Source of the DNA: Halopenitus persicus
Lineage (GTDB): Archaea; Halobacteriota; Halobacteria; Halobacteriales; Haloferacaceae
Direction of reading: 5' to 3'
Assembly (NCBI RefSeq): GCF_002355635.1
Contig: NZ_AP017558.1
Span: 1,612,001 to 1,676,000 of the forward strand
Length of the DNA: 64,000 bases
This document shows, piece by piece, positions 4,517 through 63,345 of the stretch. Made by a program: the position numbers and the translations under genes. Numbering within the stretch: the first letter of the stretch is position 1; every line of letters starts with the position of its first letter. Below the pieces are notes generated by a model. The model was not told the origin of the DNA and ran no database searches. It saw nothing but the letters and a program-made list of their open reading frames with translations.

Positions 4517-5751
4517 CTTTCGCGTGGACTCCCGTTCTGGCCGCCATCGGCGGAAGGCTCGTAATCGCCATTCACGTTCAATGTCCCGCGATTCAAGCGC
4601 ACGTTTACGGGTACGCCTCCGCCCGACGACTTTTGCGCCGAGCGGAGATACTTCAGGCCAATATTCTTCGCCGCGTTGTAGTCGGCGTTCACTTCGTAGC
4701 CACACTTCACACAACAGAATCGTTCTTGCGTCTGGCGGTTCTCTCGGAGCGTCGTCCCGCACTTAGAACACCGCTGGCTCGTGTACGCAGGACTCACCTG
4801 TTCGACCGAGATACCGAACATCTCGGCTTTGTATTCGACGTACTCGAACAAACGTCGGAACGCCCATGCGTGGAATTTCTTGACGTTCGGCATCCGCTCA
4901 CGAATCCCTGTCAGGTTCTCAAAGGCAATCACGCTACAGCCGTTTTCGACGGCTTCCGCGACGAGTTCTTTCGAGACGGTGTGTAAGAAGTGGTCGTAGC
5001 GACCCGTCTCGGTACGTCCAACCGACTGGACGGTTTCGTGAGCTGTCCGCGTTCCACGCTGTTGAAGCGAGCCGCGTCGTTTCTCGAACTCGCGGTGCCA
5101 GTGGTTCAACTCTGACCCGTTCCAGAACGCACCTGTCGAGGCAACGGCGACGTTTTCGATGCCGAGGTCAACGCCGAGGACTGTGTTGTGCCCGTCGTTG
5201 CCGTCGTCGGCAGTCTCGAACTCCACGTCCGCCTTTGTTCGGACGTGAAGGTAGAACTCACCGTCGCGGTAGTGGAGTTCCCCGCCAGTCACTTCGTAGT
5301 CGTCGTTGAACAGGTACTCCGAGTGGGGCGTTTCGCGGCTCTCGTCGGGAAGGACGTACTCCGCAGTGATACGACCTTCGACGGTCGAGAGAGTCGCGTG
5401 GTCGTCATTGAACGTCGCACACCGCTTGTCGTAGACGAGCGTCGGCGCGGAGAAGTGCGGCTTCCCCGCGTAGTCGCCTTGCTTCCACCGAGCGACGATG
5501 CTCTGTACGGCGTCGGCGGCCTTGTTGCGAGCGTTCTGGACGAGATTCGCTTGGAGACGCGTCTCGGCACGCACATCGTCGTAGGTTTCGCGTTGGAGCT
5601 CGGCTTTGCTCGTGGTCTTGTACTCGCCTTGCCACGCGTGGTCGACGACGTAGTTGGCAGCCCACAGGAACTCGGAGATGGTTTCGTGGAGGAGGTCGGC
5701 GTCGCTGTCGGCCACGTCGAGTTTGACGGGGACGGTGCGACGTACCTCCAT
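4474..5751 (-). CDS. tnpB: TnpB, RNA-guided nuclease of an IS1341/IS605-type element
   Basis: A 425-residue TnpB. The N-terminal helix-turn-helix region contains residues such as WAANYVVDHAW. The split RuvC nuclease has all three acidic residues: D in GVDLGIEN (about residue 193), E in AFENLTG (about 277) and D in NADYNAAKN (about 356). The zinc ribbon between the last two has CSKCG and CVKCG. So the protein looks catalytically intact. No tnpA transposase is present, so this is a stand-alone IS1341-type copy. The start MEVRRTVPVKL matches the usual TnpB beginning. Confidence 0.95.
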   Translation of the reverse strand: MEVRRTVPVKLDVADSDADLLHETISEFLWAANYVVDHAWQGEYKTTSKAELQRETYDDVRAETRLQANLVQNARNKAADAVQSIVARWKQGDYAGKPHFSAPTLVYDKRCATFNDDHATLSTVEGRITAEYVLPDESRETPHSEYLFNDDYEVTGGELHYRDGEFYLHVRTKADVEFETADDGNDGHNTVLGVDLGIENVAVASTGAFWNGSELNHWHREFEKRRGSLQQRGTRTAHETVQSVGRTETGRYDHFLHTVSKELVAEAVENGCSVIAFENLTGIRERMPNVKKFHAWAFRRLFEYVEYKAEMFGISVEQVSPAYTSQRCSKCGTTLRENRQTQERFCCVKCGYEVNADYNAAKNIGLKYLRSAQKSSGGGVPVNVRLNRGTLNVNGDYEPSADGGQNGSPRESPTLNEANGEAVSE

Positions 5752-6102
5752 CCGTGTTTCAGATGTAAGCTGTTGTTTTTATATTAGTAACGGTTCGGTA
5801 GGGAGTCAGCCAGCCATCGAACGTGGTTGGTGTAGTACCGTGTCGGTTTCCTCTCCGACCTACTCGCTCGCTCCTTGAGGTCGGAGGCTCCACCTTGCAT
5901 TACGCTGACTAGCCCTTGCTCGCTTCGCTCGTCCGCTGCGACTTTTTTGTTCAAATCTCCGTGGACGCTTTTCACTTCGCAGACTGCTCGCTACGCTCGC
6001 AGTATTGCTTCGTGAAAAGCGTCCTGACGGAGTTCCACGCGAGCGAAGCGAGCGTGGAGCTAGTCAGGACGTGAACGGAGTGAGTGAAACGAACGAAGTG
6101 AA
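5752..6102. repeat. palindrome-rich DNA with partial copies of the tRNA-Arg 3' end
   Basis: Non-coding, presumably containing the left end of the tnpB element. It is dense in short hairpins of the GCGAGCGAAGCGAGCGT kind. Pieces of the neighbouring tRNA-Arg 3' end recur: TTCAAATCTCCGT-GGACG on the plus strand at ~5953-5969 (two bases missing against the tRNA) and CGTCCTGACGGAG at 6024-6036, which repeats 6103-6115 of the tRNA itself. The copies at 5958-5983 and 6011-6036 form a long inverted repeat. This looks like debris of past integration at a tRNA attachment site. Confidence 0.5.
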
Positions 6103-50331: not shown

Positions 50332-52125
50332 CTACCCCTCCCTGACCTCGATCTCGTGGTGTTCGATGTACAGGTATTCGAATCGGGGAACGCCCGGCGC
50401 AAGCGGGATCCGTTCGCCCTTGATGGCGTGGTCGAAGTGGACTGCACCGTTCTGACCGAGCGTCAGATTCCCGGTCATGACTGCGCCGTAGAGTTCGCCC
50501 TGTTTGATGTAGAACTCGCCGTCGCCAAGCGGTCCGGCGGGGGCGATGATGACCCCGGTCACGCTCGGCCTCTTGGCCGACGACCCCGCGATCGCTCCTT
50601 CGAAGTGGCCCGGGCCGAAGACGAGGAACTGCGTGGATCGTTCGCGGTCGTCGTCCACGGTCGTCACGCTGGCGTCCCGTTCGACGTAGAAGTGGAGGTC
50701 CCGTTTCCCCTCCCCCGGGACGTTGACGGTGTTCTTCTCGGTGCTCTTCACGAAGAGCCGGACCTCGCCGTCGCCCTCGATCTCGACGTGCCCCTCGTCG
50801 ATCATGACCCAGGTTTCCAGGGCGATGGTGACGTCGCCGTCCGTCGTATTCAACACGAGCGTCTCGCCGTCGAGGTCGATGTTCTCCAGGTAGTACTCGC
50901 CGGCCGTGAGCTCGATTTCGTCGCCGCCGCCGAAATCGAGCCGGTCGTCGCTGATCGCGTCGGTGGCGTCGTTGTCGTTCTCGCCGACCACCTGGTCGAC
51001 TCGATACTCGACTAACCTGTCGATCGGCGGGATGGACGGGACGTTGGACCCGTTGTTCGTGATCTCCCCCGTGACCGATTCCCCGTCGTGTACGTGGACC
51101 TGCGTTGCTGACGAGGCGTTGCCGTCGATCTGGCTCGACCCTGACTCGATGGAGATGTCGCTGTCGGCTGCGACGTCACCGTTGATTCGAGAGTCTCCGA
51201 ACATCGAGACTTCCCCGGCGGATCTGACGGATCCGTTATCGCCGTTCGTCTCAGCGTACGAGCCGACCGTCGAGTCGTAGCTGTCGATGTAGGCGCCGGT
51301 TCCCTCGAGTCGAATCTCGCCGGGCCCGGACGTCGCGATGACCCCGGCTTCCGGCGAGTAATCCTGCGGGAGCGCCACGAACTGGATCACGACCACCTGC
51401 TTGTCGTGGTCGTACTGGACGATCGTATCCGCGTCATCGTCGAAGTACCGACCCCAGGCCCTGTAGTACCGGCTCTCGATGGTGACCTGGACGATGGCGC
51501 CCTCCACCCTGTTGTGCAGGCCGGCGGTCGAGTTGGGGTACTGCTGTACGGAGGGCCCGGAACGGGCGATCTGAACGTCGCTGTGGACGCTTCCTCCTCG
51601 ATTGCTTTCGACGATGTGCATCGTGAGGGTTTCGTTCCGGAACCGGATCTCGGGCGGCGACACCATCATCGATCCGTTCCCGTCGCTGCGCCAGACGCCG
51701 CCACTCTGGTACCCGACCGTCGTGTCACCGTTCTCGTAGACGACGGTTCCCATTGACGTGTTCGTGATTTCGGTCCGGTTTTCGCTATCCATGAGGTCGA
51801 CGTACTCGACCGTGAGGCGTCCGCTCTCGGGGTCGACGTCGAGGGTGCCGCCGTTCCCCCGCAACCCGAGGTCGACGGTCCGTGACGACGTCCCTCCGAT
51901 CGCGACGCGTTTCGCCTCGGCATCGAACTGGGTCACCGACTGCTCGGCCTGGCTCACCTCGACGTCCTCCTGGCCTCCCGACAGCTGCGGCCCGGCGATC
52001 AGCACGATGGTGGACATCCCGAGGACGACGATGGCGATCAGCAACGCCACGGACACGACTTCGGAGACGGCGCGGTCGGTCGCCGGAGCCGTTCCCTCGT
52101 GCGTGCGTGTACTATCATTTGACAT
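50332..52125 (-). CDS. large pilin-like surface protein with type IV pilin N-terminus
   Basis: A 597-residue protein. The N-terminus has a class III type signal: charged stretch ending TDRAVSEVVSVALLIAIVVL, one membrane helix, then a long extracellular part rich in beta structure, Asn-x-Ser/Thr sites and Gly. The middle (GSSQIDGNASSATQVHVHDG) resembles polymer-like surface repeats, and the C-terminal region (FLVFGPGHFEGAIAGSSAKR, VTGVIIAPAGPL) recalls the haloarchaeal DUF7305 type. It follows the short pilin gene by 24 bp, so they form an operon divergent from pilB. Confidence 0.8.
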   Translation of the reverse strand: MSNDSTRTHEGTAPATDRAVSEVVSVALLIAIVVLGMSTIVLIAGPQLSGGQEDVEVSQAEQSVTQFDAEAKRVAIGGTSSRTVDLGLRGNGGTLDVDPESGRLTVEYVDLMDSENRTEITNTSMGTVVYENGDTTVGYQSGGVWRSDGNGSMMVSPPEIRFRNETLTMHIVESNRGGSVHSDVQIARSGPSVQQYPNSTAGLHNRVEGAIVQVTIESRYYRAWGRYFDDDADTIVQYDHDKQVVVIQFVALPQDYSPEAGVIATSGPGEIRLEGTGAYIDSYDSTVGSYAETNGDNGSVRSAGEVSMFGDSRINGDVAADSDISIESGSSQIDGNASSATQVHVHDGESVTGEITNNGSNVPSIPPIDRLVEYRVDQVVGENDNDATDAISDDRLDFGGGDEIELTAGEYYLENIDLDGETLVLNTTDGDVTIALETWVMIDEGHVEIEGDGEVRLFVKSTEKNTVNVPGEGKRDLHFYVERDASVTTVDDDRERSTQFLVFGPGHFEGAIAGSSAKRPSVTGVIIAPAGPLGDGEFYIKQGELYGAVMTGNLTLGQNGAVHFDHAIKGERIPLAPGVPRFEYLYIEHHEIEVREG

Positions 52126-52149: not shown

Positions 52150-52593
52150 TTACGGTCTGAACGTTCCCAGGACGCTCTCGGTGCTGCCGCGGGGATCCTG
52201 CCAGACGACGGTGACCCGTTCGACGTCGTCCGGACCGATCGCATCACCGGTGTCGTTCACCATCACCGTCCGTTCGCCGGTGACGAGCCGATCACTGGAC
52301 AGGTCGTACTCGTCGCCCTGCTCGGTCCGGACCACGATCTCCTCCGCAACGAGCGGCTCGCCGCCCTCGTGGTGCAGCTCGACGACCTGGTCGCCCCCGT
52401 CGTCGGCCACGCTGAACGAGAGCGTCACCTGGGGAGCGTCTGCCGACCCGACGCCGACGTCAAGCACCACGGTGCCGATGACGGTCGCGAGGATCACCGT
52501 AATGCCGAGCAGTAGCGCAGTCCCCACGACCGGCGACACCGCGCGGTCGTCGGAACCCGACGCTCGCTCGTCCGATCTTCGTCGTTGCGTCAT
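52150..52593 (-). CDS. archaeal type IV pilin
   Basis: A 147-residue pilin. SDDRAVSPVVGTALLLGITV is the standard haloarchaeal prepilin start: a short charged leader cut before the hydrophobic helix by the prepilin peptidase, followed by an assembly helix (LATVIGTVVLDVG) and a beta-rich head (DAPQVTLSFSVADDGGDQ). It heads the two-gene unit with the large pilin-like gene. A second similar pilin begins at 63636. Confidence 0.9.
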   Translation of the reverse strand: MTQRRRSDERASGSDDRAVSPVVGTALLLGITVILATVIGTVVLDVGVGSADAPQVTLSFSVADDGGDQVVELHHEGGEPLVAEEIVVRTEQGDEYDLSSDRLVTGERTVMVNDTGDAIGPDDVERVTVVWQDPRGSTESVLGTFRP

Positions 52594-53160: not shown

Positions 53161-56100
53161 ATGAGTGGGGACACGGTCGAAACGGGTGCGACGGAGTTCC
53201 CCGATCTCCCCGGTAGCGAGGGTACGGACGACGACTCCGACCCGCCAGCGGCCATCCTCGGGGAGTACACGTGGAAGGAGTTCATGCGCGAACACGGGTA
53301 CGGAGACGAGGTCGAGGCCGTGTACCGGGACGTCGATCCCGAGGCGAACGGGGACACGTTCTTCCCGTTCTCGAGCACCGACGTCCGTCGTGTTCCGAAC
53401 GCCGACGACTGGGATCGCGTCGCGTTCACCCCGGCTGCGTACCTCGGTTGCCGGCCATCCGCGTTCGAGGACCGGCTCCGCCGGGCCACGAGCGCGAGCG
53501 CACGGTTCGATCGCGCGTTCGAGAACTGGATCGTGCGGACCCGGGTCGCGAAGGGCGAGTACACGTGGGAGCACTTCAAGTGGGAGTACTACTACGACGA
53601 CGGCCGACCCCCACGGGACGGCGGGGAGATCGAACCGTTCGCCCCGTCCGAGCATCTGGGGTTCCATCCCGACGACATCGGATCGGTGCTGGCTGCAGGC
53701 GCTGAAAACGCCCGGGAGTTGCTCGAGATCGAGGACCGCCGGACGGTGAACGTTACTCCCGAACTGGACGAGGACGAGTTCTTCTCGACGAACGAGGGAC
53801 TGACGACGCTCACGAACCGCTACGATCTGGAGAAGGCCGTCCCGATGGAGAAAAAGCGGCACTTCGTCGAGGAGGACCGATACTGGGTCGACAAGCCGTA
53901 TGCGTTCGTCGTCATCTTCCACTCGGTCACGGAAAACGAGAAGAAGTACTACGTGATCGAACCGTACCTCAACGAGATCGAGCAGGACCTCGTCGAGTTC
54001 TTCTCCGGCAAGCTCCGGACGAGCATCAAGTACTCCGACGAGGACGTCGTCGTCAGGGGAACCGAGGAGGAGCGCGCGGACCTGCTCGAGGAGGAGACCA
54101 GGTGGTTGATCGACCGGTACAACCTGCGTAGCCCGGCCGCGAGCGACGACGAGTCAACCGACGGGCCGCTGCGCGAGACCCTGACACGGTTCGACGGGGA
54201 GGCCGTCCGCGACCGACTCAGGGGACTCGTGGACTCGCTCGGATCGTCGTCCGAGGAGCCCGACGACGATTCGACGGATGAACCCACGGAACTGGAGGGG
54301 ATCTCGGCCCGTCCGGAACCCGCGGTGCTCGCGGAGGACTCGGGATGGCTCACCGAGTACCAGGTCCAGAAGGTGCTCCGGCTGATCCGGCGCGACTTCA
54401 TCGGGTACGAGCGGATCGACCCGATCAAACACGACATCAACGTGGAGGACATCTCCTGTGACGGCTACAACTTCCCGGTCTTCGTCTACCACACCGATTA
54501 CGAGAACCTGATCACGAACATCAAGCACGGGGAAGACCGGCTCGACAGCTTCGTCATCAAGATCGCCCAGCGGTCCGGGAAGGGGATCTCGAAGCGTCAG
54601 CCGCAGGTGGACGCCACCCTGCCGGACGGCTCCCGCGCCCAACTCACGCTCGGCGAGGAGGTCTCCGACCACGGGACGAACTACACCATCCGGCAGTTCA
54701 AGGACGTCCCGTTCACGCCGGTCGACCTCATCAACTGGAAGACGTTCTCGCTCGACGAGATGGCCTTCCTGTGGCTCTGCATCGAGAGCAACAAGTCGCT
54801 GATATTTGCGGGTGGCACCGCCTCCGGGAAGACGACGAGCCTGAACGCGGTCTCGCTGTTCATCCCCTCGAACTCGAAGATCGTCTCGATCGAGGACACC
54901 CGCGAGGTCGAGCTGCCCCAGCGCAACTGGATCGCCAGCGTGACTCGGCCGTCGTTCAGCCAGGACAACGTCGGCGACATCGACGAGTTCGACCTCCTGG
55001 AGGCGGGGCTCCGGCAGCGCCCCGACTACATCGTGATGGGTGAGGTGCGGGGAGAGGAGGGCCGAACCCTCTTTCAGGTGATGTCGACCGGACACACGAC
55101 GTACACCACCTTCCACGCCGACACGGTCGACGAGGTGTTGAAGCGGTTCACGACGGACCCGATCAACGTCTCGAAGACGCTATTCACGGCGCTGGACCTG
55201 ATCTCGGTTCAGACCCAGACCCGGGTCCAGGGCCGGAAGGTCCGGCGCAACAAGACGATCACGGAGATCAACTCCTACGACGCTGAGAACGACGAGGTGA
55301 GCGTCCAGGACGTGTACCAGTGGCAGCCGGAGGAGGACGAGTTCCTCCAGCACGGAAACTCGAAGAAGCTCCAGGAGATCGCCTTCGACCGCGGCTGGAC
55401 CCCCGAGCAGCTCAACGCGGAACGGTTCAAGCGCCGCACCATCCTGGCGTACCTCATCACGAACGGGCTGAACACGTACACCGAGGTCGCCGCCACGCTG
55501 CAGGCGTTCATCAACGATCCCGAGACGATCCTGACGATGATCGCCAACGAACGGCTGGAGGAGAGTCTGGCGGACCTCCGGGAGATGGAGTCGGTGCTCA
55601 TCGACGTCGACCCCGTGAAGGAAGCGCTGGTCCCGCGGCCCGAGCCCGGATCGGACGTCCTCGAGGAGGCGGAACGCATCCTCGAGGTTGCGGAGGATCG
55701 GATCTTCAAGGAGTACCGTGGAAAGCAGGCCAGCAGCCTGGCCGACGCGCTCTCCCGAACGAAACACGCGAACGACGCCACCGCGTCGCCGGAACGTGAC
55801 CCACAGATGCTGATGGCGGTCGACGACGCCGACGATCAACTCCTGGCCGACGGAGCGACGTCGGACGTCGAGATGCCGAAACCCCCAGAGACCGTCGATG
55901 CTGGGGAGACGACACGGGGACCGACGCCGGACGCACGCGTCGACGATGCGGACGTCTCATCGAACGAATACGATGACGACGAGCCGACCAGCGAAGCGAT
56001 GGACGAGCCGACTAGCGAAGCGATGGACGAGCCGACTAGCGAAGCGATGGACGAGCCGACTAGCGAAGCGATGGACGAGCCGACTAGCGAAGCGATGGAC

Positions 56101-56292
56101 GAGCCGACTAGCGAAGCGATGGACGAGCCGACTAGCGAAGCGATGGACGAGCCGACTAGCGAAGCGATGGACGAGCCGACTAGCGAAGCGATGGACGAGC
56201 CGACTAGCGAAGCGATGGACGAGCCGACCAGCGAAGCGATGGACGAGCCGACCAGCGGAGCGACCGACGACGACACCCAGGAGCGTGAATGA
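53161..56292 (+). CDS. pilB: PilB-type pilus assembly ATPase with repeat tail
   Basis: A 1043-residue type II/IV secretion ATPase. The N-terminal region has two related modules (EYTWKEFMREHGYGDE near 38 and EYTWEHFKWEYYYDDG near 135, each followed by PF...LG..P). The ATPase core has Walker A FAGGTASGKTTSLNAVS (about 547), Asp box SIEDTREVELPQ, Walker B YIVMGEVRGEEG and His box TGHTTYTTFHADT. The last ~100 residues are twelve EPTSEAMD-type units. It assembles type IV pili with the PilC-type protein; its stop overlaps the next ATG. Confidence 0.93.
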   Translation: MSGDTVETGATEFPDLPGSEGTDDDSDPPAAILGEYTWKEFMREHGYGDEVEAVYRDVDPEANGDTFFPFSSTDVRRVPNADDWDRVAFTPAAYLGCRPSAFEDRLRRATSASARFDRAFENWIVRTRVAKGEYTWEHFKWEYYYDDGRPPRDGGEIEPFAPSEHLGFHPDDIGSVLAAGAENARELLEIEDRRTVNVTPELDEDEFFSTNEGLTTLTNRYDLEKAVPMEKKRHFVEEDRYWVDKPYAFVVIFHSVTENEKKYYVIEPYLNEIEQDLVEFFSGKLRTSIKYSDEDVVVRGTEEERADLLEEETRWLIDRYNLRSPAASDDESTDGPLRETLTRFDGEAVRDRLRGLVDSLGSSSEEPDDDSTDEPTELEGISARPEPAVLAEDSGWLTEYQVQKVLRLIRRDFIGYERIDPIKHDINVEDISCDGYNFPVFVYHTDYENLITNIKHGEDRLDSFVIKIAQRSGKGISKRQPQVDATLPDGSRAQLTLGEEVSDHGTNYTIRQFKDVPFTPVDLINWKTFSLDEMAFLWLCIESNKSLIFAGGTASGKTTSLNAVSLFIPSNSKIVSIEDTREVELPQRNWIASVTRPSFSQDNVGDIDEFDLLEAGLRQRPDYIVMGEVRGEEGRTLFQVMSTGHTTYTTFHADTVDEVLKRFTTDPINVSKTLFTALDLISVQTQTRVQGRKVRRNKTITEINSYDAENDEVSVQDVYQWQPEEDEFLQHGNSKKLQEIAFDRGWTPEQLNAERFKRRTILAYLITNGLNTYTEVAATLQAFINDPETILTMIANERLEESLADLREMESVLIDVDPVKEALVPRPEPGSDVLEEAERILEVAEDRIFKEYRGKQASSLADALSRTKHANDATASPERDPQMLMAVDDADDQLLADGATSDVEMPKPPETVDAGETTRGPTPDARVDDADVSSNEYDDDEPTSEAMDEPTSEAMDEPTSEAMDEPTSEAMDEPTSEAMDEPTSEAMDEPTSEAMDEPTSEAMDEPTSEAMDEPTSEAMDEPTSEAMDEPTSGATDDDTQERE
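55981..56268. repeat. 24-bp x 12 tandem repeat at the 3' end of pilB
   Basis: Eleven copies encode exactly EPTSEAMD and a twelfth reads EPTSGATD. The middle copies are identical in DNA (GAGCCGACTAGCGAAGCGAT plus GGAC); the first copy and the last two have ACC in place of ACT. The uniformity points to recent expansion and predicts copy-number variation. Confidence 0.95.
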
Positions 56293-56837
56293 TCATGGAA
56301 TACGCATACGCGACGTGTATACTGAACGAAACGGGCGAAGAGATCAACGAAGAGAACCTGACCGCGGTCCTCGAGGCCGCTGGCTGTTCCGTCATCGAGT
56401 CCCGCGTAAAGGCGATCGTCGCCGCGCTGGAGGACGTCGACGTCAGTAAGGTCACTGCCGTCGACGTGGAGGACGCCGGTAACGCGTCACCGGCGGATCT
56501 GGAGATTCCGTCGACGGCGGACGAGGACGTGGCGGCGGACGAGGCCGATTCCGGGACGGCACCCGGGAGCGACCCGGCGATGGAGGATCCGGCGATGGAG
56601 GATCCGGCGATGGAGGATCCGGCGATGGAAGACCCGGCGATGGGAGCCGAGACGGAGCTCGCGTCGGGTGAACGGACCGATGAAGCGCACGAGGCCGACT
56701 CGGAAGCGACTGCCGGCGACGACGATCGAACGATCGACGCGGACGACGAGACGACGAACGCCGACCCTCCGGTGGAGGCGACGGACGCCGAACTCCCGGA
56801 GGAGGAGACGAGCGCCGGCCCTTCCGAAGAGAGGTAG
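56289..56837 (+). CDS. ribosomal stalk P1-like domain protein in pilus operon
   Basis: A 182-residue protein. Residues 3-58 (MEYAYATCILNETGEEINEE, NLTAVLEAAGCSVIESRVKA, IVAALEDVDVSKV) closely follow the N-terminal dimerisation domain of archaeal ribosomal protein P1 (L12). The tail differs: acidic, with PAMED repeated four times (15-bp unit, 56575-56640), and it lacks the GLGALFG-like C-terminus with which P1 binds translation factors. The ATG at 56289 overlaps the pilB stop; ATG 56295 matches the P1 start. It sits between pilB and pilC, 3 bp before pilC, so it is part of the operon. Confidence 0.8.
   Translation: MIMEYAYATCILNETGEEINEENLTAVLEAAGCSVIESRVKAIVAALEDVDVSKVTAVDVEDAGNASPADLEIPSTADEDVAADEADSGTAPGSDPAMEDPAMEDPAMEDPAMEDPAMGAETELASGERTDEAHEADSEATAGDDDRTIDADDETTNADPPVEATDAELPEEETSAGPSEER
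56575..56640. repeat. 15-bp tandem repeat (PAMED)
   Basis: Four units of CCGGCGATGGAGGAT (the last with GAAGAC) encode PAMED, followed by PAMGAE. Confidence 0.9.
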
Positions 56838-56840
56838 TTC

Positions 56841-58877
56841 ATGAGTACAGACCCGGTGGCCGTTCACGGATGGCGACGTCGACGCTACATCGACACCCTC
56901 ACGGACGCGTTCAGACCCGTCTACGTCAGGCTGTTCGACGAGAACGATTCCTTCGTCATCAACGTCGAGGACAAGCTCGCCGAGGCTCGTATGGACAAGA
57001 CTGTGGAGGTGTACCTCTCGCGAGCGCTCGCGTTCGGAACGATCTGTGGAGCCCTGCTCTGGCTGCTGGGCGTCACCGTGGCCTTCGGAGTGATCGAGAC
57101 CGGCATCGTGGAGGTCGGGGCGCTTACCAGCCTCCGGATCCCGAACCCGACGCTTCTGGCGCTGATCGAGATCGCCCGGGTCCCGTTTTTGATCGTGACC
57201 TCGGGGTTCCTGCTCGGCTCGATCGGCTTCGCGGCCGTCTTCGGCAGCTACGTCGCGCTCCCGTACAGTCGGGCCGGATCCCGCAAACGTGAGATCAACA
57301 CGCTGCTGCCCGACGCCGTCTCGTTTATGTATGCACTGTCGCTCGGGGGGATGAGCCAGATCGAGATCATCGAAACGATGGCCGAATCGGCGGACACCTA
57401 CGGGGAAGTGTCGATGGAGTTTCGAACGATCCTCCAGGAGACCCGGTACTTCGATACGGACTACCGGACGGCCATCCAGCGATGCGCAGTCCGGACTCCG
57501 AGTGCCGAACTGAGCCAGTTCTTCACCGATATGCTGTCGATCATCGACAGCGGCGGGAGCATGACGGAGTTCCTCGAGGACAAGAAGGACATTCACTTCC
57601 GCCACGCCAAGGAGGACCAGCAACGCACCCTCGAGACGCTCGAGCTGTTCAGCGAGATGTACATCACGATCTCGCTGTTCCCCCTGCTTCTGATCGTCAT
57701 TCTCGTGATCCTGGACATGATCGGCGGGAGCCAGGAGCTGCTCCTCTACGGGACCGTGTACGTGCTGATACCGGGACTCGGACTGGCGTTCCTGGTCATC
57801 GTCTCGACGGTCCGGACGGACGAGCACGGGAACGGCTACCTCGAACTGGAGGACGACGTCGGGCGGTTCGATTTCGGCCAGGAGTCGAACGCGCTGGACC
57901 TCGGGTTGATCGGACAGTTCACGGGAACGTACTACATCTTCGACCGGATCGCCAGCCGGGAAGGCACCAAAGTGGCCATGGAGATGTTCAAGAACCCCCA
58001 CGTCTTCCTGCGCGACAATCCGATATATACGCTCGCGATCACCGTTCCGGGGTCGATTGCGTTCGTGGCCGTGACGGTCCTGACCGGATCGGCTCCGGTC
58101 ACGTGGGCCGGCGTCATCGACTATCCGATCTGGTCGACGGTCGTCTACGTGTACGTCCCGTTGTTCGCCATCTGTATCCCCTTCACGGTCTTCTGGGAGT
58201 GGAACGTTCGACGACGGCGGGCCGTCCTGGATGGGCTCTCCGAGAACCTCCGGAAGCTGGCGAGCGCAAACGCGACGGGGCTGACGCTGCTCGAATCGAT
58301 CAAGGTGGTCGCGGACACGACGCCCGGCAAGCTGGGGGAGGAGTTCCGGACGATCCACTCGAAGAGCAACTACGGGATGCACCTCAAGGAGTCGCTGGTC
58401 GTGTTCAACAACAAGTACCACATCCCGCGGCTCGCCAGGACGGTGAAGCTCGTCAGCAAGGCACAGGAGATCTCGAGCCAGATCTCCACGGTCCTGTCGA
58501 CGGCCGCAGTGGCGACCGAGACCCAGGAGGACATCGAGCGTGACCGCAAGCAGCGTGCGATGATGCAGGTCGCGATCATCGTCCTGACGTACCTGACGCT
58601 GCTCGGCGTGATCGCGCTGTTGAAAGCCCAGTTCGTCGACGTCATGGCGGATGTGACCGCGCAGACCGAAGGCGGAGCCGGGACCGGCGGACGGAACTTC
58701 GGCGTCTCCATGGACCTGGGGCTGCTGTCGCTGCTGTTCTTCCACGCCGTGACCCTGCAGGCGATCCTCTCGGGGCTCGTCTGCGGGTACATCCGCGACG
58801 CGAACGTGGCGTCGGGCGTGAAGTACGTGGTGTTCCTCTCGACCGCCGCACTCGGCGTCTGGCTGGTGGTTGCATGA
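56841..58877 (+). CDS. pilC: PilC-type pilus assembly membrane protein (T2SSF domains)
   Basis: A 678-residue membrane protein with two type II secretion F-like domains. Each has the pattern of a cytoplasmic helical bundle and following membrane helices: LPDAVSFMYALSLGGMSQIE near 155 and LSENLRKLASANATGLTLLE near 465. About eight membrane segments are visible. It is the platform that PilB drives to add pilin subunits. The next gene overlaps its stop (ATGA). Confidence 0.92.
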   Translation: MSTDPVAVHGWRRRRYIDTLTDAFRPVYVRLFDENDSFVINVEDKLAEARMDKTVEVYLSRALAFGTICGALLWLLGVTVAFGVIETGIVEVGALTSLRIPNPTLLALIEIARVPFLIVTSGFLLGSIGFAAVFGSYVALPYSRAGSRKREINTLLPDAVSFMYALSLGGMSQIEIIETMAESADTYGEVSMEFRTILQETRYFDTDYRTAIQRCAVRTPSAELSQFFTDMLSIIDSGGSMTEFLEDKKDIHFRHAKEDQQRTLETLELFSEMYITISLFPLLLIVILVILDMIGGSQELLLYGTVYVLIPGLGLAFLVIVSTVRTDEHGNGYLELEDDVGRFDFGQESNALDLGLIGQFTGTYYIFDRIASREGTKVAMEMFKNPHVFLRDNPIYTLAITVPGSIAFVAVTVLTGSAPVTWAGVIDYPIWSTVVYVYVPLFAICIPFTVFWEWNVRRRRAVLDGLSENLRKLASANATGLTLLESIKVVADTTPGKLGEEFRTIHSKSNYGMHLKESLVVFNNKYHIPRLARTVKLVSKAQEISSQISTVLSTAAVATETQEDIERDRKQRAMMQVAIIVLTYLTLLGVIALLKAQFVDVMADVTAQTEGGAGTGGRNFGVSMDLGLLSLLFFHAVTLQAILSGLVCGYIRDANVASGVKYVVFLSTAALGVWLVVA

Positions 58878-59521
58878 TCCGACCGCCGGACCAGTCGGAA
58901 GACGGTAGCCGGACGTCAGCCGACGACACGGTCGACACACCTGGCGACGACACGGTCGGAACACCTGGCGACGACACGGTCGACACACCTGGCGACGACA
59001 CGGTCGGAACGTTCGCCGACGACACGCGCGGACAGACGCTCCCCGACTTCGCCGCCGGAATCGCCATCTTCCTCATCACGGTGACGTTCGTCTCCGTATT
59101 CGTCCCACAACTGATCCTGCCGTTCGAGGACCAGGAGCAGCCCGTCGTGGCCGATCGGATCACGAACGGGCTGGGGAACGATGCGCTCACGGAGCCGGGG
59201 ACGCCGTCGGAGCTGAACGAATCGGCGACGCGAGCGTTCTTCGACCTCGCTGAGGACGAGGCGCTCGACCGGCTCGGCGTTCGCCCGTGGTACTCGGTCA
59301 ACGTGACGATACGCGACGTACCCAGTCACGACCCGGACTCGGCCGTGCTCTGTGCCGTCGACGACCCCGACAGCGACGAGTGGATCGGCGCGTGTGAATC
59401 CGGTGCCGATCGGTTCGCGCTCGGCCCACCGGCGTCGACGGACGACCGGTCGGTCTCGACGGCCCGGCGAGCGCTCTTCGCCGGCGACAGCGGCGTCGTT
59501 CTCGAAGTGAGGGTCTGGTAA
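58874..59521 (+). CDS. pseudopilin-like protein (DUF7287-like)
   Basis: A 215-residue protein: an acidic N-terminal stretch with four DDTV-(D/G)-TPG repeats (24-bp unit, DNA ~58921-59012), then TRGQTLPDFAAGIAIFLITV, a prepilin-like junction with a membrane helix, and an extracellular domain with cysteines (VLCAVDD, IGACESG) that could form a disulfide. I recall the family as DUF7287, found after PilC in haloarchaeal pilus loci. Probably a minor pilin or assembly factor. Confidence 0.78.
   Translation: MIRPPDQSEDGSRTSADDTVDTPGDDTVGTPGDDTVDTPGDDTVGTFADDTRGQTLPDFAAGIAIFLITVTFVSVFVPQLILPFEDQEQPVVADRITNGLGNDALTEPGTPSELNESATRAFFDLAEDEALDRLGVRPWYSVNVTIRDVPSHDPDSAVLCAVDDPDSDEWIGACESGADRFALGPPASTDDRSVSTARRALFAGDSGVVLEVRVW
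58921..59012. repeat. 24-bp tandem repeat in the DUF7287-like gene
   Basis: About four units encode DDTVDTPG or DDTVGTPG alternately, suggesting a 48-bp higher-order duplication. Confidence 0.85.
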
Positions 59522-59523
59522 CC

Positions 59524-60153
59524 ATGGGACGAAACTCGAGCGAAAACACGTCCGACCGTGGCCAGACGTTTACGCTGGAGGCGTTCGTCGCGGCGATCCT
59601 CCTCGTCTCGACCGTCGCGTTCGGACTCCAGGCCGTCTCGATGACCTCGAACACGGCGAGCGCCGCGGATGCGGAGCTGCGAGGCCAACACGTCGGACTC
59701 GCCCAGGGCGTCCTCGACCGGGCCGTCGAGAACGGGACCCTGAAGGCGACGCTGCTGTACTGGAACGAAGCGGAAGCACGGTTCTACGGGGCCGACGAGG
59801 AGGACGGGTTCTACGTCTCCGAGAGCCCACCCACGACGTTCGGCGAGTCGCTGGACGCGATGTTTCACGGATCGAACATCCGATACAACGTCGATCTGTC
59901 CTACCGCGACGAAACCGGCGACCGGGCGACCCGGAAGCTGGTCGAGTCCGGCACGCCGAGCGACGACGCGGTGCGGGTCGCCGAGACGGTGACGCTGTAC
60001 GACGACACCGTTCTCGTCAACGCGACCGAAACGCCCCGCGAAAACGTGACGCTCGCGTCGGTCGGCGGAGACGGGTTTTACGCGCCCAACGTGGACACGG
60101 ACGGTTCGCTGTACAACGTGATCCGGGTGGAGGTGGTCCTGTGGCGCGCCTAG
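59524..60153 (+). CDS. pseudopilin-like protein (DUF7288-like)
   Basis: A 209-residue protein starting MGRNSSENTSDRGQTFTLEA and a membrane helix (FVAAILLVSTVAFGLQAVS), the minor-pilin layout. The external part has several Asn-x-Ser/Thr sites (NGTLKA, NVTLAS). It begins two bases after the preceding stop and overlaps the next gene by 13 bp. The family is, from memory, DUF7288. Confidence 0.78.
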   Translation: MGRNSSENTSDRGQTFTLEAFVAAILLVSTVAFGLQAVSMTSNTASAADAELRGQHVGLAQGVLDRAVENGTLKATLLYWNEAEARFYGADEEDGFYVSESPPTTFGESLDAMFHGSNIRYNVDLSYRDETGDRATRKLVESGTPSDDAVRVAETVTLYDDTVLVNATETPRENVTLASVGGDGFYAPNVDTDGSLYNVIRVEVVLWRA

Positions 60154-61124
60154 GTACCCGGTCGGACGACCGGGCACAGCTGTTGATCGTCGGCGCGATC
60201 GGCATCGCGATCCTGCTCACCGTCCTGGCGCTGGCGCTGAACACGGCCGTCTACGGCGAGGTCTACGTCGCACAGACGGACGACAACCTCCAGGACGAAC
60301 GGGGGGCGATACAGTACCGGCACAGCGTCGACCGCGCCGTCACCGGGCTGATCGGGGCGAACCCCGGGAACCCCCCCGAATACGACGACCTCGAAAGCGA
60401 CCTGCGGGCGGACGTCGACCGGTGGAACGATCTGACGAAACGGGAGCACGTTGCGGACGACGCGGTGACGTCCGCCTCGATAACCGACGTCACCTTCCGG
60501 AGCCGGATCGTGCAGGACGAGACCAAATCGTTCGCGACCCAGTCCGACCGGAGCAACCGATCGAACTGGACCGTCGCCGACGACGTCTCCGCCGTCGAGG
60601 CGTTCGAACTGCGGGTCCACGACGACTCGCTCGCGTCGACCGATGACTGTACGCCGGGCGGCGACTGCTTCACCCTCGAGGTCGAGGGCGGCGGCGGGAA
60701 GACGTGGCGGCTGTTCGCCAACACCACTGCGAGCGATGCGGGCGTCGCGGTCACCGTCGAGTCGTCTGATGGGGCCACCACCTGCGAGACGACCGAGTCG
60801 ACCGCGTCGGTCAACGTGACGGCGGGCACGTTCGACGACGGAGCCGGAACCGAGTGTTCGTTCACGTCGTTCCTCGACGACGATCTCGATCCGCCGTACA
60901 CCGTGCGGTACGCGAACGCCGACAACGCCACCGGGACGTACGACCTCACCGTGGGCGGCAAGATCGTCGCGGACACGATCGATGCCGACGACCGCTACGG
61001 GACGTCCGGATCGCCGCGGATCGAGGCCCGGATCGAGACGGCGACGGTCGCCGTCGAGTACCGGTCGCCGGACCTGACCTATCGGACCGAGTTCAGGGTC
61101 GAGGGAGGTGCGGACGATGCGTGA
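60141..61124 (+). CDS. pseudopilin-like protein (DUF7261-like)
   Basis: A 327-residue protein. The N-terminus LGTRSDDRAQLLIVGAIGIA runs into a membrane helix (ILLTVLALALNTAVYGEVYV), again the minor-pilin type. The ectodomain holds four cysteines (DDCTPGGDCFT, TTCETT, GTECSF) that could pair. From memory the family is DUF7261. It overlaps both neighbours, so the whole set is tightly coupled. Confidence 0.78.
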   Translation: MARLGTRSDDRAQLLIVGAIGIAILLTVLALALNTAVYGEVYVAQTDDNLQDERGAIQYRHSVDRAVTGLIGANPGNPPEYDDLESDLRADVDRWNDLTKREHVADDAVTSASITDVTFRSRIVQDETKSFATQSDRSNRSNWTVADDVSAVEAFELRVHDDSLASTDDCTPGGDCFTLEVEGGGGKTWRLFANTTASDAGVAVTVESSDGATTCETTESTASVNVTAGTFDDGAGTECSFTSFLDDDLDPPYTVRYANADNATGTYDLTVGGKIVADTIDADDRYGTSGSPRIEARIETATVAVEYRSPDLTYRTEFRVEGGADDA

Positions 61125-61590
61125 CCGCCGTTCGACGACCGACCGCGGCGTCTCGACGGTCGTGAGCTACGCGCTGATCCTGGGGATCGTGGCCCTGCTC
61201 CTGGTCACGCTGATCCTGGCGTTCGCTCCGCTGGTGACGAACCAGCAGACGAGCGCCGTCCACTCGACGCTTGCGGTCGTGGGCAACGACCTCGCCGGCG
61301 ACGTCGAGAGCGTCGACAGGCTCGCGGTCACGACCGGGTCGAACGGGACGGTCGTCCATCGCACGCGGCTCCCGGAGCGCATCGGGGGGAGTCCCTACCG
61401 GATAGATATCGACCAGCCGGGCGGCGAGACGTACTACGAGCTCACGCTCCGGAGTCCCGACCACGACCTCGACGTGACGGTCACGGTCAGGACGCGAACC
61501 GAGATCGACGTCGCCGAGATCGGGACGCTCGATGGGGGACACCTCGAGATCGCCTCGGGGGAGAACGGGCTGGTGATTCGGAATGCGTGA
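61117..61590 (+). CDS. pseudopilin-like protein (DUF7266-like)
   Basis: A 157-residue protein with the start MRDRRSTTDRGVSTVVSYAL and a membrane helix (LILGIVALLLVTLILAFAPL), very like an archaeal prepilin. The head is beta-rich. The ATG at 61117 overlaps the preceding gene by 8 bp; a GTG three codons earlier is possible. From memory the family is DUF7266. Confidence 0.78.
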   Translation: MRDRRSTTDRGVSTVVSYALILGIVALLLVTLILAFAPLVTNQQTSAVHSTLAVVGNDLAGDVESVDRLAVTTGSNGTVVHRTRLPERIGGSPYRIDIDQPGGETYYELTLRSPDHDLDVTVTVRTRTEIDVAEIGTLDGGHLEIASGENGLVIRNA

Positions 61591-62443
61591 CCGCGACCGC
61601 CAGCGGTGCGCGAACGACCGGAGCGAGCACATCTGCGATCGAAGCGGGCACACTTGCGACCGGGGCGAACAGACCCACGGCCGGGGCGAACAGACCCACG
61701 GCCGGGGCGAACGTACCCATAACCGCGGGCAGAGTGAACTGCTCGGGTTCGCGCTGATCTTCGGGGTCGTCGTCCTCGCCATCGTTCTCATCGGGACGAC
61801 CGGCTTCGTCGGGCTCGACGATGCCCGGGACTTCCAGCGGACGACGAACGCCGAGCAGGCGTTGACCGTCCTCGCGGAGAACATCGACGACGTGACGCGT
61901 CGCGGCGCACCGAGTAGGACCACCGAGATCAGGCTCGCCGACGCCTCGCTGTCGCTCGGGGAGCCGGAACGGATCACCGTCACGGTCGGTGACTCGACGC
62001 CGGAGAACACGACTGACGTCGAGATGCGGCCGATCGTGTACGACTCCGGCTCCGGAACGACCATCGCGTACACCAGCGGCGCGCTGATTCGTCAGGACGG
62101 CGAGCATTCGGTGATGATCCGGGAGCCGAACGTGGTGCTGACGGACGAGCTGGTACTCCTCCCCGTCGTCGCCACGTCGCCGAACGATGCCGGTCCCGTC
62201 GGCGGCACGTCCGCCGTCGACGTCCGGACGCGGAGCGCGGGAACCGAGGTGGTCGCCGCGGACGACGGCGCGACCACCGTCGACGTCGAGGTGACCTCGC
62301 CGCGCGTCGAGTCGTGGTACCGGTTCCTCGATGGCGAAACGGACGCCGACTGCGAGGCTCCCGTCGACGAGACGGTAACCTGCACGATCGAAACCCAGCG
62401 CGTCTACGTGACGGTCGAGCACGTCGACGTGCGGTTCCGGTGA
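61583..62443 (+). CDS. pseudopilin-like protein (DUF7289-like)
   Basis: A 286-residue protein. A charged leader with HTCDRGEQTHGRGEQTHGRG (21-bp repeat, about three copies, DNA 61660-61725) precedes QSELLGFALIFGVVVLAIVL, the pilin-like helix. The ectodomain is beta-rich and has two cysteines near the C-terminus (ADCEAP, VTCTIE). It ends the operon that begins at pilB. From memory the family is DUF7289. The unusually long, His/Cys-containing leader is probably due to the repeat. Confidence 0.78.
   Translation: MRDRDRQRCANDRSEHICDRSGHTCDRGEQTHGRGEQTHGRGERTHNRGQSELLGFALIFGVVVLAIVLIGTTGFVGLDDARDFQRTTNAEQALTVLAENIDDVTRRGAPSRTTEIRLADASLSLGEPERITVTVGDSTPENTTDVEMRPIVYDSGSGTTIAYTSGALIRQDGEHSVMIREPNVVLTDELVLLPVVATSPNDAGPVGGTSAVDVRTRSAGTEVVAADDGATTVDVEVTSPRVESWYRFLDGETDADCEAPVDETVTCTIETQRVYVTVEHVDVRFR
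61660..61725. repeat. 21-bp tandem repeat (GEQTHGR)
   Basis: About three units of CGGGGCGAACAGACCCACGG plus C encode GEQTHGR ahead of the pilin-like helix. Confidence 0.85.
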
Positions 62444-62667: not shown

Positions 62668-63345
62668 TCAGGCGATCTTCCGGCTCACGTCGATGGTGAC
62701 GTCCGAGGTCAGATCGAGCTCGATCGTGTTCGGGAGCGACTCGCCGCCGCGGAACTTGGGAAGCGAGAGACGGTTCTCGACGCTCCCGCCGCGCAGTTTC
62801 GTGACGAGGTCGAAGATGACGTCGGCGTGGTACTCGGTGCGGTCGCGCTGGGCCGGCACGTCGCGCCCGTCGAGACAGTGAAGCAGGGCGATCCCCCCGG
62901 TTTCGACCGTTCGCGTCTTGAGGTCGTTCAGGAACGCACGGTACACGTCGTCGTCCGCCGTCTCCAGTGCGTTGATGGGGTCGACGATCAGCATGGACTC
63001 GTCGGTGAGTCCCTCCAGTGCCGACCGCGCGCTGCCGACCGGATCGTCGTCGAGCCGGCGGACGTCGACCGCGTCCGGTGAGGTCCCCGCCCGTTCGAGC
63101 TCGAGTTCGACCTCCGCCGTCGTCCGTTCGGTCGTCAGGTACACCGTCTCTCGGGCGGCGGCCATCTCGTAGAGGAACAGTTCGGACTGGCACGCCGGCG
63201 ACGCCAGCAGCGCGATCGTCCGGCCGGCGGGAATGCCGCCGTCGAGCTTCCGGTCGAGGATGTCGATCCCCGTCGACAGCGTCTCAACCGTCGACTCCTC
63301 CGTCTCCGATTCCTCGTCCTCGAACATGTGGTGCGCTTCGGTCAT
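62668..63345 (-). CDS. RadA/KaiC-like protein with degenerate P-loop
   Basis: A 225-residue protein of the RecA/RadA-KaiC superfamily: LSTGIDILDRKLDGGIPAGR is the usual lead-in, but the Walker A position reads LLASPACQSELFLYEM with no GKT/S, so ATP binding is doubtful. The Walker B-like strand is SMLIVDPINALE. Such small KaiC-like proteins are common next to haloarchaeal pilus and chemotaxis genes. It converges on the pilus operon. Probably a regulatory or scaffold protein. Confidence 0.78.
   Translation of the reverse strand: MTEAHHMFEDEESETEESTVETLSTGIDILDRKLDGGIPAGRTIALLASPACQSELFLYEMAAARETVYLTTERTTAEVELELERAGTSPDAVDVRRLDDDPVGSARSALEGLTDESMLIVDPINALETADDDVYRAFLNDLKTRTVETGGIALLHCLDGRDVPAQRDRTEYHADVIFDLVTKLRGGSVENRLSLPKFRGGESLPNTIELDLTSDVTIDVSRKIA

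Follow-up and report, generated by a model that had tools for sequence, protein, structure and literature searches.

A tail-less paralogue of ribosomal stalk protein P1 linked to type IV pilus genes in haloarchaea

Between the genes for the motor ATPase (pilB) and the platform protein (pilC) of a type IV pilus operon, Halopenitus persicus encodes a paralogue of the archaeal ribosomal stalk protein P1 that lacks the factor-binding tail of that protein. The sequence-only reading of this paralogue as a member of the operon is borne out, and the association recurs at 14 loci in several families. I will argue, tentatively and with a probability of about 0.4, that the protein is a dedicated component of a haloarchaeal pilus cassette, that it descends from a P1 copy which retained the N-terminal domain and lost the factor-binding tail, and that it acts as a dimer clamping a helix of the pilus motor. 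I take it to be a dedicated component because of its invariable placement (14 of 14 loci), the loss of the tail, purifying selection on the domain, the presence of a separate normal P1, and the linkage to a gene encoding a DUF7125 protein.

The P1-Like Gene and Its Surroundings

The features considered in this study are listed below, with coordinates given in the window, i.e., the whole stretch of 64,000 nt that was analyzed.

50332-52125, minus strand: DUF7289-DUF7305 protein, second gene of the divergent pilin pair
52150-52593, minus strand: type IV pilin (Pilin_N, PF07790, E = 3.3e-17)
53161-56292, plus strand: pilB, type IV pilus motor ATPase, 1043 aa (T2SSE, PF00437, E = 5.1e-29; weak PilB3_C match), with 24-bp repeats in its tail (55978-56270)
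56295-56837, plus strand: probable extent of the P1-like gene, 180 aa counted from M3 (TIGR03685, E = 5.7e-15; 3a1y_A, E = 6.6e-13; homologues start MEY)
56295-56453, plus strand: conserved P1 N-terminal dimerization-type domain, about 53 codons (alignments; pN/pS 0-0.45; AlphaFold helices)
56454-56834, plus strand: acidic tail, predicted to be unstructured, without GLGxLFG and unconserved in homologues, holding a 15-bp PAMED array (56574-56643)
56841-58877, plus strand: pilC, platform protein (T2SSF, PF00482, E = 1.4e-26; included in the tree of P1-linked PilCs)
58874-59521, plus strand: DUF7287 protein, conserved downstream gene
59524-60153, plus strand: DUF7288 protein
60141-61124, plus strand: DUF7261-like protein
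61108-61590, plus strand: DUF7266 protein
61583-62443, plus strand: DUF7289 protein
62668-63345, minus strand: DUF7125 protein, KaiC-like, with a degenerate Walker A motif (SPACQSE) (PF23442, E = 3.3e-54)

An open reading frame of 182 aa was confirmed at 56289-56837 (plus strand). Residues 3-86 match the NCBIfam family TIGR03685 (ribo_P1_arch) with 55.5 bits, the top match in PDB is P1 from Pyrococcus (3a1y_A), and residues 3-55 are 75% identical to the rpl12 product of the same genome. The N-terminal match to archaeal ribosomal P1 covers about the first 55 residues and is far beyond chance. The protein shares with archaeal P1 (aP1, the product of rpl12) this N-terminal domain, the MEYxYA start, a predicted fold of three to four helices, and an acidic low-complexity tail. 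Unlike P1, it has no GLGxLFG motif, lies inside a pilus operon, and scores below the curated equivalog cut-off of TIGR03685 (100 bits), as do the other pilus copies (47-75 bits), while the genome's own rpl12 reaches 128.2 bits. A Pfam search with the protein gave nothing significant; a weak match to RdfA (E = 0.022) was taken as chance.

The position between pilB and pilC, ending 3 nt upstream of the latter, was confirmed by the identity of the T2SSE and T2SSF neighbors. The claimed overlap with the pilB stop fared less well. All homologues open with M(E/K/D)Y, and for this reason the true start is probably the ATG at 56295, 2 nt after that stop, rather than the overlapping ATG at 56289.

An AlphaFold model built from four sequences places helices at residues 2-15, 21-30, and 37-47, with pLDDT of about 80-91 across the first 40 residues and low confidence in the tail. 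Foldseek ranks 3a1y and eukaryotic P1/P2 as closest to the model (E = 9.4e-4, probability 1.00), and structural comparison gave Z = 6.6 with 1.7 Å over 48 residues. For a small helical domain such a Z score is not decisive by itself, but taken together with the sequence match it is consistent with a P1-like fold, not with the different fold that would have spoken against the sequence-only reading.

Since the genome also holds a normal rpl12 gene of 112 aa, ending in GEGLGELFG and located beside the genes for P0 and L1 (G000:C1:350282), the pilus-linked protein is not the stalk protein, and the earlier reservation that it might be the only P1 of the organism falls away.

Distribution of Pilus-Linked P1 Genes

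A second P1 gene is present in only a few of 148 genomes of the family, and about 26 of 391 good Halobacteria genomes carry two or more. The neighborhoods of extra copies were fetched from genomes with more than one P1, and 11 of these copies lie between pilB and pilC (those in the window, L040 (SHRA6), L042, L043, L044, L047, L048, L049, L051, L067, and L069). Ten of the 391 Halobacteria genomes (2.6%) have the gene at this site, L042 (G083) coming from the family sample. Three further loci were found, two in metagenome-assembled genomes (L070 and L073) and one on plasmid pHME505 of Haloferax mediterranei (L164), a model species with an intact cassette, in which the gene lies at about 321738-322175 of NZ_CP039140.1. 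At all 14 loci the gene is placed exactly between pilB and pilC, and in none of the 14 does the product contain GLGxLFG, which is present in every rpl12 and every other second copy checked; the absence of the factor-binding tail, first remarked in the window's copy, thus extends to the 13 others.

Related cassettes are spread over the Haloferacaceae and two or more further families, and they also occur in metagenome-assembled genomes labeled Haloarculaceae and Halococcaceae. The two other species of the genus are without the cassette, and horizontal transfer is likely to have played a part in its history. The genome of the window and that of SHRA6 carry ordinary PilB3/PilC3 genes in addition. 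The P1-like gene is confined to a small minority of haloarchaea, and type IV pili in general therefore do not require it. Outside the Halobacteria the phylum was sampled with about 230 genomes, of which a single draft genome had extra P1 copies; two of its three extra copies were read, both of them tailed, and BLAST found no pilus genes near any of the three. A phage origin was considered and set aside, as there was no match in phage records.

The simplest alternative is that an ordinary second stalk gene landed by chance in a pilus operon. The strong similarity to P1 would fit this, but the factor-binding tail is missing in 14 of 14 cases, members of several families have the gene at one and the same site, and ordinary second copies are very different from these, all of which makes the idea extremely improbable. 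There are 16 other second copies (L050 and L052-L066), which keep GLGxLFG, lie away from any pilB or pilC, and are ordinary extra rpl12 genes. They fall mostly within one family (f4), and one of the second rpl12 copies lies on a plasmid of Natrinema caseinilyticum among genes for universal stress, Hsp20, and CBS-domain proteins.

A different arrangement was seen at locus L068, where an open reading frame (4669-5820, plus strand) contains two tandem P1-like domains whose identity to rpl12 is about 48%, and its neighborhood holds no pilus genes. It is possibly another reuse of the P1 domain and is perhaps frameshifted downstream.

The pilB-pilC Junction

In haloarchaeal pilB-pilC pairs without a P1-like gene, pilC mostly begins 4 nt inside pilB, and the P1-like gene therefore sits in a tightly coupled junction. 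Where the gene is present, it starts 2-6 nt downstream of pilB and ends anywhere from 20 nt inside pilC to 9 nt before it, spacings that look like translational coupling. The sole large gap between pilB and pilC without P1, in Halorussus litoreus (L125), reflects a frameshift in pilB and holds no extra gene.

A tree was made of 57 PilC proteins, 13 of them P1-linked. In 92% of bootstrap trees a single branch separates the P1-linked proteins from the rest, with low support for that branch in the best tree (59/36), and none of 500 shuffles was as clustered. The 13 sequences are consistent with a single clade. An attempt to establish a single origin from the P1 copies themselves was abandoned: their 53 columns give no resolution, one clade not being rejected (AU p = 0.38).

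Conservation of the Domain

Between homologues, the pN/pS ratio of the domain is 0-0.45 in the pairs compared, and the first 53 or so residues are under purifying selection. The pair L042/L043 shows zero amino acid changes in the domain and a pN/pS of about 1.1 in the tail. The tails differ among relatives, with no conservation in the alignment, and the L067 protein (62 aa) stops right after the domain. The constraint on the domain, the freedom of the tails, and the existence of a domain-only copy together indicate that the domain is the functional unit. The free variation of the tails and the very short and divergent L067 might instead suggest a nonfunctional relic or an artefact of annotation, but in every pair tested the domain has an intact reading frame and evolves under purifying selection (pN/pS ≤ 0.45), and the junctions are tight at all loci, and so I regard this as very improbable.

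The pilus copies evolve faster than archaeal P1, with which they coexist: they are 61% identical to one another, as against 95% for true rpl12 within the sampled genomes. Their helices 1-3 are largely preserved (67% mean identity to rpl12), and there is little conservation of the helix-4 region, which in stalk proteins contributes to the dimer interface. These figures bear on whether the protein might still serve the ribosome, by binding P0 or forming heterodimers with P1, so as to yield stalk positions without tails or to tether ribosomes to the pilus machine. The many rpl12 residues retained in helices 1-3, the binding of P0 by the P1 domain in known structures (PMC4379515), and an LF-like motif retained in the tails of L048, L049, and L051 would accord with such a role. 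On the other side, every copy is linked to pilus genes and none lies near P0, helix 4 has diverged, and the low mutual identity fits a different or changing partner. On this evidence a role at the ribosome is unlikely. More doubtful still is the specific version in which the protein, by docking on P0 or pairing with the normal P1 of the cell, would let the pilus machine draw in ribosomes or tune them, giving a physical link between translation and pilus assembly.

Possible Partners in the Pilus Machine

Stalk P1 dimerizes via helices 1, 2, and 4, the dimers sit on spine helices of P0, and translation factors attach to the LF motif of the tail (PMC4379515). A dedicated pilus component could be derived from this scheme as follows. 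A copy of P1 would have kept the N-terminal dimerization domain and lost the tail that binds translation factors. By analogy with P1, its product may homodimerize, and the dimer may clamp a helix of PilB, PilC, or the DUF7125 protein, as P1 clamps those of P0. The clamp might hold ATPase and platform together or set the clustering of motors, with the variable acidic tail perhaps serving as a solubility or spacer segment. The divergence of helix 4 in the pilus copies counts against this scheme, and a BLAST search for a P0-like spine helix in the operon proteins (PilB, PilC, and DUF7125) found nothing significant.

The DUF7125 gene is present in every P1-bearing cassette with enough flank, and the pilin and the DUF7289-DUF7305 protein in nearly all of these. 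Neither DUF7125 nor such a pilin was found at P1-less PilC loci (sampled genome contigs, 5-kb flanks); most genomes of the family have a separate core copy of DUF7125. The constant linkage could mean that the P1-like protein is a chaperone-like or regulatory factor, made together with PilB and PilC and acting by way of DUF7125 (e.g., in assembly or switching) in a nonstructural capacity. It is in keeping with this that KaiC-family ATPases are known near archaeal type IV pili and have been proposed as their regulators (PMC4858521). However, the site within the pilB-pilC junction, not beside DUF7125, favors a partner in the motor, and a regulatory factor seems to me rather unlikely.

With a dedicated pilus component of this kind, a core interaction domain of the ribosome would have found a second, recurrent use in a surface-appendage machine. 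Clamping of the motor ATPase or the platform, should it occur, would make the protein a new accessory subunit of a type IV pilus motor, and the principle of a dimer on a helix, known from P1 and P0, would prove reusable outside translation.

Comparison with Known Systems

The cassette resembles the haloarchaeal PilB3-PilC3 system (clade 2 of Makarova et al. 2016, PMC4858521) in its related PilB and PilC, a PilB-type ATPase followed by a T2SSF platform protein, and in the order of the DUF7287, DUF7288, DUF7266, and DUF7289 genes downstream of pilC. It differs in that pilC does not directly follow pilB, the extra P1-like gene splitting the usual overlap, in that its PilCs fall in a separate group, and in its linkage to pilins, the DUF7289-DUF7305 protein, and DUF7125. 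Like the KaiC-like or FlaH/ArlH-like ATPases of archaeal pili and archaella, DUF7125 adjoins a PilB-type motor; unlike them, it has a degenerate Walker A motif. I know of no relation between those ATPases and P1. A search of openly licensed papers for P1 or L12 in connection with pili brought up no earlier report, and the terms "ribosom", "stalk", and "L12" are all absent from the main text of the census of archaeal type IV pili (PMC4858521).

Tails and Repeats

The acidic PAMED repeats had been put forward as a functional replacement for the lost tail. This part of the sequence-only reading does not stand: the repeats, a 15-bp tandem array at 56574-56643, are private to the genome of the window, the tails of relatives differ, and L067 has none, so that the PAMED repeats are incidental. 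Of the 15 bases of their unit, 13 agree with the 24-bp unit of the repeats in the pilB tail, for which reason the two arrays probably share a DNA origin. The two arrays (55978-56270 and 56574-56643) have in common the 15-bp core GCGATGGANGANCCG (15 matches vs. 0.03 expected).

PilB tails beside P1 are shorter than others (median 84 vs. 297 aa, p = 5e-5, by a statistic that ignores kinship). The notion that the P1-like tail stands in for a shortened PilB tail was nevertheless rejected, as the tails are similar in both systems of SHRA6 (85 and 90 aa) and LF-type motifs are found mainly in Natrialbaceae. Among the PilB C-terminal tails of loci L074-L149, many from PilB3 proteins of that family are long and acidic, with repeated SIFxD or LGGLFDD, resembling the LF motif of the stalk.
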